Shown here one piece after another: positions 52,262 to 53,885 of a stretch of 64,000 nucleotides of DNA. The translations under genes and the position numbers were made by a program. The stretch is from Owenia fusiformis (Eukaryota > Annelida > Polychaeta > Sabellida > Oweniidae). Within the stretch, counting starts at the first letter, position 1; each line of letters opens with the position of its first letter. Under the pieces are notes generated by a model that was given only the letters and a program-made list of their open reading frames with translations, ran no database searches and was not told the origin of the DNA. The DNA lies in NCBI GenBank assembly GCA_903813345.2, contig CAIIXF020000002.1:34678109-34742108 (forward strand), given 5' to 3'.

Positions 52262-53458
52262 AATCAGGTATTATGTAACTCTACAGGATGAGGCGATCTT
52301 GCAGGCATTTAACATAATAAGCATCTCCATTAACATATCATTGATCTCTCCACAGCCACTCTGCACAATGTAGACATCCTCCCCTCTAACAGATTCACCA
52401 ATCTCAACACTAAAGACAAAGGGAAACATGTAAATCAGGTATTATGTAACTCTACAGGAAGAGGCGATCTTGCAGGCATTTAACATAATAAGCATCTCCA
52501 TTAACATATCATTGATCTCTCCACAGCCACTCTGCACAATGTAGACATCCTCCCCTCTAACAGATTCACCAATCTCAACACTAAAGACAAAGGGAAACAT
52601 GTAAATCAGGTATAATGTAACTCTACAGGAAGAGGCGATCTTGCAGGCATTTAACATAATAAGCATCTCCATTAACATATCATTGATCTCTCCACAGCCA
52701 CTCTGCACAATGTAGACATCCTCCCCTCTAACAGATTCACCAATCTCAACACTAAAGACAAAGGGAAACATGTAAATCAGGTATAATGTAACTCTACAGG
52801 AAGAGGCGATCTTGCAGGCATTTAACATAATAAGCATCTCCATTAACATATCATTGATCTCTCCACAGCCACTCTGCACAATGTAGACATCCTCCCCTCT
52901 AACAGATTCACCAATCTCAACACTAAAGACAAAGGGAAACATGTAAATCAGGTATAATGTAACTCTACAGGAAGAGGCGATCTTGCAGGCATTTAACATA
53001 ATAAGCATCTCCATTAACATATCATTGATCTCTCCACAGCCACTCTGCACAATGTAGACATCCTCCCCTCTAACAGATTCACCAATCTCAACACTAAAGA
53101 CAAAGGGAAACATGTAAATCAGGTATAATGTAACTCTACAGGAAGAGGCGATCTTGCAGGCATTTAACATAATAAGCATCTCCATTAACATATCATTGAT
53201 CTCTCCACAGCCACTCTGCACAATGTAGACATCCTCCCCTCTAACAGATTCACCAATCTCAACACTAAAGACAAAGGGAAACATGTAAATCAGGTATTAT
53301 GTAACTCTACAGGATGAGGCGATCTTGCAGGCATTTAACATAATAAGCATCTCCATTAACATATCATTGATCTCTCCACAGCCACTCTGCACAATGTAGA
53401 CATCCTCCCCTCTAACAGATTCACCAATCTCAACACTAAAGACAAAGGGAAACATGTA
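52262..53458 (-). repeat. Seven 171-bp tandem copies of the PRPS exon 2 acceptor plus 5' exon fragment
   Basis: Seven units of exactly 171 bp, nearly identical, lie in intron 1 directly upstream of the true exon 2. Each contains the polypyrimidine tract and AG, ~132 bases of exon 2 (to codon ~86), then ~20 bases of intron sequence in place of the exon's 3' part and donor. Because 171 is a multiple of three, five units form one 280-codon open frame (53284-52442). Three units have TATTATG instead of TATAATG, which makes a TAA. A degenerate eighth edge copy continues to about 53510. Confidence 0.95.
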
Positions 53459-53885
53459 AATCAGGTATAATGTAACTTTACATGATGAGGAAGTCTTGCA
53501 CCCATTTACATTTTACCAAAATTTGGAGATGTTTTTTAAAAATTTGAGCCAATTTTTCATGCATCCTGTTTTTCTAATTTCTCAAAAATGAGGCAAAATG
53601 TAACTCAAATTGAAAATAGATTTGGCCTATGTTAAACAAGACACAGCACTTTGTTCTGTAAACCATTGGGCATAAGCACAATACCAAACAAATCATAAAA
53701 TGAAATGTAAAACAGCCTTCATTATTCAGGAAGTTTTGATACGCTTTATTTTGAGCACGCCTGCCCACATGTTAGTCATTTTAAAAAATTTTCACACATA
53801 GATAGTGGTGTGAACTTTGATTATATGCGAGTCAAATCATACCTATCATTCATTTAGACACAAATGGTCTATGTCTGTGTCTAAA

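Follow-up and report, generated by a model that had tools for sequence, protein, structure and literature searches.

The window, that is, the whole 64,000-base stretch of contig CAIIXF020000002.1 analysed here (G+C 0.357), carries an intact gene for ribose-phosphate pyrophosphokinase (PRPS), whose first intron contains a tandem array of partial copies of exon 2, each with its own splice acceptor. The gene is located on the minus strand, from 58363 to 47153, and its seven exons form a coding sequence of 957 bases (318 codons). The predicted protein matched human PRPS1 over its full length (1-318 to 1-318, E 2.3e-185). The coding part of exon 1 (58242..58363) ends at the donor ATG/GTAAGC and the 184-base exon 2 (52055..52238) at the donor AAG/GTAGGA (the slash marks the exon border). 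Exons 3 (50531..50629), 4 (50159..50283), 5 (48988..49161), 6 (48372..48531) and 7 with the stop codon (47153..47245) follow on the same strand.

The PRPS N-terminal domain (PF13793) gave 11 matches genome-wide, nine of them at the PRPS gene, namely exon 1, the real exon 2 and the seven extra copies of the latter, referred to below as decoys. The remaining two were found on another contig (C9), and the peptide tested from there had its best match in PRPS-associated protein 1 (3.3e-19), the best PRPS1 chain reaching 1.7e-9. Judged from this exon-by-exon profile search, the PRPS gene in the window is probably the sole catalytic copy of the genome, and its splicing must therefore work. The gene for the PRPS-associated protein contains two versions of one exon lying 2.2 kb apart (C9:16968988-16969179 and 16971200-16971424), possibly alternative exons. 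A run of 40 G within PRPS intron 1 (window 55145-55184) bears on assembly accuracy or G-quadruplex formation.

Organisation of the array

Between exons 1 and 2, seven units of exactly 171 bp were found on the minus strand (52279..53475), each consisting of the 3'-terminal 40 bases of intron 1, with the candidate branch site, the polypyrimidine tract and the AG, and the 5'-terminal 131 bases of exon 2. The real acceptor and exon 2 then continue the register, forming an eighth copy (52108..52278, minus), which holds the genuine AG (52240-52239) together with 131 bases from the start of the real exon. At the outer end, a local score comparison detected a degenerate edge copy of the exon/intron junction of about 36 bases (53476..53511, minus). 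Tandem Repeats Finder (TRF) reported the array at 52107-53508 with a period of 171, 8.2 copies and 98% matches, its score being the second-highest among the 52 rows for the window. A second repeat search gave eight copies at an exact spacing of 171, the outermost (eighth) of which was just 73% like the reference. An array of acceptor-plus-partial-exon units in an intact PRPS gene had been described in a first-pass annotation made from the letters alone, and both repeat searches, together with the 318-codon reading frame, confirmed it. Its seven 171-bp units stood, but the full decoys run from 53475 to 52279 rather than from 53510 to 52262, and the exon part comprises 131 bases instead of about 132.

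The copies are highly similar. Compared with the commonest unit, the successive decoys had 1, 1, 0, 0, 0, 0 and 2 mismatches and the real copy had 4; two of 171 positions varied among the decoys and three of 131 exonic positions across all eight copies. In searches of the 498.26-Mb genome, which weak or common sequences can escape, the unit matched at the PRPS locus alone, which speaks against dispersed copies or a transposon. No structured RNA was detected in the whole window at the Rfam gathering score.

The edge copy scored 32 against the exon part of the unit, a value that no other window piece attained (1,555 compared, highest score 25). Against the real exon 2 it scored 24, which was reached by 18 of the 1,555 window pieces and by none of 453 pieces from intron 1 (maximum 23). 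The edge had been put forward earlier as an argument against an assembly duplication; a partial copy does exist and the argument is a fair one, but it is weak, as the match is limited to about 36 bases and may be due to chance.

The decoys differ in the base at unit position 161 and in that at position 7 of the following unit, so that the successive junctions are of the types A-A, T-T (four times), T-A and A-A. The T-A junction, the sixth, is a recombinant of the A-A and T-T types, which points to exchange between units. The array most likely started when the exon recombined unequally with a similar stretch of the intron just before the acceptor, and it would then have grown and been homogenised by unequal exchange or replication slippage. 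Such an origin is inferred because a hybrid junction is present, the inner units are almost identical, one junction is recombinant and the outer edge is decayed, this edge being either a decayed old copy or a chance similarity at the place where the first exchange happened. On these features, the array is most likely a homogenising minisatellite that took in a splice acceptor.

Splice signals and reading frames

The final 20 bases through the acceptor AG were identical in all eight copies, so the seven decoy acceptors claimed to precede the real one are indeed there. In the rest of intron 1, a single AG among 201 scored as high. The candidate branch site, CTGAT, was present in every unit 25 bases before the AG. 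The distance from the exon 1 donor is 4,806 bases to the first decoy and 6,003 bases to the real acceptor. Donors were scored with a donor matrix, by which the best GT inside a unit obtained 4.25 and the six real donors 6.19-11.95, with 12 of 248 GTs elsewhere in intron 1 scoring at least 5. With the weakest real donor at 6.19, the units lack a matching donor, as had been noted before.

The period is a multiple of three and, in agreement with the first-pass annotation, several units share a single frame, which stays open for 284 codons (52442..53296, minus) through decoy units 2 to 6. It ends at an in-frame TAA (52444-52442) at the junction of units 6 and 7, which is the recombinant T..A junction. 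Another in-frame TAA is located at the junction of units 1 and 2 (53297..53299, minus) and a third at the junction adjoining the real exon (52271..52273, minus). The stop codon is set by a single T/A site, as proposed earlier, units with TATTATG on the plus strand having TAA in the frame of the gene; it is present at three of the seven junctions and absent from four.

Splicing from exon 1 to a decoy, with reading on to the real donor, would give exons of 355, 526, 697, 868, 1,039, 1,210 or 1,381 bases in comparison with the normal 184, all of which keep the frame. In all seven, ordered from the shortest to the longest, TAA stops the read-through after residue 86, 86, 143, 200, 257, 314 and 86, respectively. 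Read-through of any length fails because the last junction, beside the real exon, has its own TAA, which truncates continuous read-through from every decoy. Nonsense-mediated decay is the expected fate of an mRNA with such a premature TAA, and mis-splicing to a decoy would probably yield a truncated message that is decayed. If a unit were left by either of the two GTs closest to its end, the exon would, by arithmetic, be 125 or 130 bases long and the frame would shift.

Interpretation of the array

The array is most likely a near-neutral, homogenised example of what have been called mirages in amphioxus, i.e., duplications of intron-exon boundaries that resemble minisatellites and, according to the reports, leave splicing undisturbed (PMC3087553, PMC3902484). 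It would be tolerated since exon definition takes the acceptor nearest the only donor. The 184-base exon 2 would thus be defined from that acceptor, and decoys making exons of 355-1,381 bases would be passed over. Because no decoy precedes a donor that scores as usable, the splicing machinery most likely ignores them. In that case the array would have almost no effect on PRPS expression, and transcripts leaking to a decoy would meet a premature TAA and be degraded. The repeat unit crosses from intron into exon, the array adjoins the genuine boundary of an intact gene, and the inner units are homogenised with the boundary unit left out (0-2 differences among the decoys, a 36-base degenerate edge and a recombinant junction 6), which are features of mirages. 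A poison or decoy exon would be a complete exon with acceptor and donor whose inclusion is regulated, and the units contain no donor near the real ones. Mutually exclusive or repeated coding exons are not what was found either, as each unit holds a partial exon, has no donor and leads to TAA in seven of seven read-throughs.

Several points weigh against this interpretation. In 1986, Reed and Maniatis reportedly found, using artificial duplicated splice sites in globin minigenes, that the acceptor nearest the 5' donor was favoured when enough exon followed; by analogy, such a rule would predict the use of the first decoy and not of the last acceptor. The range of mirages, which is not a structural trait, comprises cephalochordates in the reports, and the present host, probably the annelid Owenia, probably lies outside it. 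Its twelve large contigs contrast with n = 19 in B. floridae (PMC11371463), and the G+C of the window is lower than that of amphioxus (about 0.41). The genome gave no match to the GFP family, a weak sign since the control genomes gave none either; the same holds for the mollusc haemocyanin domain, and mitochondrial COX1 likewise had no match. Arrays over exon edges are not the rule: long-period arrays (period of at least 100, at least 2.5 copies) made up 631 of 140,000 bases in gene-anchored pieces. The similarity of the edge to the real exon is weak if taken alone, given the 18 of 1,555 window pieces that reach its score.

That the array modulates splicing or triggers decay, as suggested earlier, is possible. 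In its strict form, the suggestion implies a regulated array: splicing factors would be contested by the seven acceptors, and a set proportion of transcripts would be spliced to a decoy, meet TAA and decay, thereby tuning or lowering the PRPS output. This is improbable. The acceptors are strong and identical, with their score equalled by just one of the 201 AGs in the remaining intron, and TAA occurs in all seven read-throughs, once in the junction beside the real exon, as such regulation would have it. However, the near-identity of the units speaks of youth or homogenisation and not of selection, four of the seven junctions are without TAA, as drift would leave them, and the published mirages are reported to have left splicing undisturbed (PMC3087553, PMC3902484).

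There is likewise little probability that the array is an assembly artefact, in which the assembler multiplied one or a few copies or joined two haplotypes. The decoys are near-identical (0-2 differences), as an artefact would make them, and the BflGb6 draft of amphioxus was termed aberrantly assembled by its own authors (PMC3087553). Against this, the two variable sites are arranged in order and include a recombinant junction, the array has a hybrid junction and its edge is degenerate, no second locus was found and 1.4 kb is shorter than one long read. The true copy number may differ from that of the assembly.

In-frame exon-repeat isoforms, in which the decoys would be translated as 57-residue repeats, had also been proposed and have next to no probability left: the period of 171 (57 codons) and the 284-codon frame would suit them, but TAA interrupts each of the seven continuous decoy-to-real-donor exons, the units offer no donor comparable in strength to those of the gene itself, splicing at the two GTs that lie closest to the end of a unit would shift the frame and, because the junction beside the real exon carries TAA, repeats are unavailable via read-through in this assembly, for which they were rejected as largely refuted.

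A wider and rather unlikely proposition is that the array serves as a natural device for splice-site selection in what is probably the sole phosphoribosyl pyrophosphate synthetase gene of a spiralian, with either the last acceptor always taken or the decoys used in dependence on copy number. The former, if true, would show cleanly in vivo that an acceptor's pairing with a downstream donor outweighs a first-come-first-served choice. In the latter case, a hypervariable minisatellite would act as a heritable dial on nucleotide synthesis via mRNA decay.

Other tandem arrays and comparison with known systems

Long-period arrays as defined above occupied 5,879 of the 64,000 bases of the window. Elsewhere, four pieces lying 0.03-0.4 Mb away from the window had 1,181 of 40,000 bases in such arrays and four arbitrary pieces from the middle of contig C2 had 10,425 of 40,000, the 631 of 140,000 bases given before referring to 14 gene-anchored 10-kb pieces. 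Where the genome was sampled arbitrarily such arrays are common, and they are rare around the 14 gene exons sampled. A special hot spot of arrays at the window was not borne out, the window being rich in comparison with the gene-anchored pieces and not with the arbitrary ones.

A by-eye look for matches on the same strand and to the same part of a profile within 1 kb, made among the matches listed for Ras (at least 153 matches; 150 of 302 candidates scored), protein kinase (at least 144; 124 of 876) and globin (19), revealed no second acceptor array. Three pairs fetched from this sample contained no near-identical tandem exon copies. A 180-bp array at about 35.1055-35.1067 Mb of C2 (piece 5523-6703; TRF 5596-6691 of the piece, 6.1 copies, 97%) shares about 8 bases with the end of a transporter-like frame (piece 6684-7325, minus) at an apparent donor ATG/GTATGT, which scores 6.65; nine further donor-like GTs in the array stretch read score 7.4-9.6. 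The matches of this exon to MFS were weak and below all cut-offs. The array is a candidate donor-side mirage, judging from these positions.

Further tandem arrays of the window were located at 7640-9186 (20 bp x 77), 21304-22846 (203/407 bp x 7.6/3.8) and 29456-31749 (two adjoining arrays of 162-163 bp). The two separate arrays at 9693-10505 and 38466-39135 have the same kind of unit (CATTTTGAAAAATGGCCGCCATTTTAACG...), and the satellite is therefore dispersed. The region 40887-42830 (minus) encodes an intronless frame of 647 codons with RING, B-box and NHL repeats (TRIM type).

In the literature search, in which most subscription journals fell outside, mirage reports were found from amphioxus only, and no further relative of the acceptor-array structure came up, PMC3887541 included. 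The closest counterpart is the mirage of the amphioxus globin gene BflGb6, with units of 150-160 bp that comprise the 3' end of an intron and the 5' part of exon 2, and with two haplotypes of six and three units (PMC3087553). RT-PCR (reverse transcription PCR) and Adh3 data suggest regular splicing there (PMC3087553). Both arrays have acceptor signals in their units and homogenised inner units with the boundary unit excluded. They differ in that the PRPS array has a period of 171 bp and seven extra units, 98% alike by TRF, whereas the BflGb6 units are 81-100% alike (PMC3087553). Moreover, the PRPS array lies in a probably non-cephalochordate genome and is known from one assembly, whereas for BflGb6 haplotype variation and splicing have been studied. 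Amphioxus Adh3 and TnC, the latter cited together with the newly added PGBD5 as further mirages (PMC3902484), also have tandem repeats over splice sites, reported or argued to be harmless to splicing (PMC3087553, PMC3902484). The units of Adh3 (10-72 bp) and PGBD5 (60 and 108 bp) are shorter than those of the PRPS array, and some of these mirages cover donors.

Decoy exons that promote intron retention, e.g., in OGT (PMC12017769), resemble the PRPS units in that splice signals could occupy the machinery without a proper exon; unlike the latter, which have no donor, they are regulated, with evidence for it (PMC12017769). The PRPS array is real in this assembly, striking in form and already known in kind.

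In an annelid host, it would mean that mirages are not a cephalochordate peculiarity and that other animals whose minisatellites are active can acquire them. With eight acceptors 171 bases apart and one donor in a housekeeping gene, the locus offers a ready test of 3' splice-site choice, for which the existing transcriptomes of O. fusiformis, covering 14 developmental samples (PMC9977687), could serve if this species is the host. As in the Reed and Maniatis minigenes, identical serial acceptors compete for one upstream donor. Unlike those constructs, the PRPS array is natural, offers eight acceptors in a very long intron, with 6,003 bases to the real one, and concerns an internal exon with one donor.
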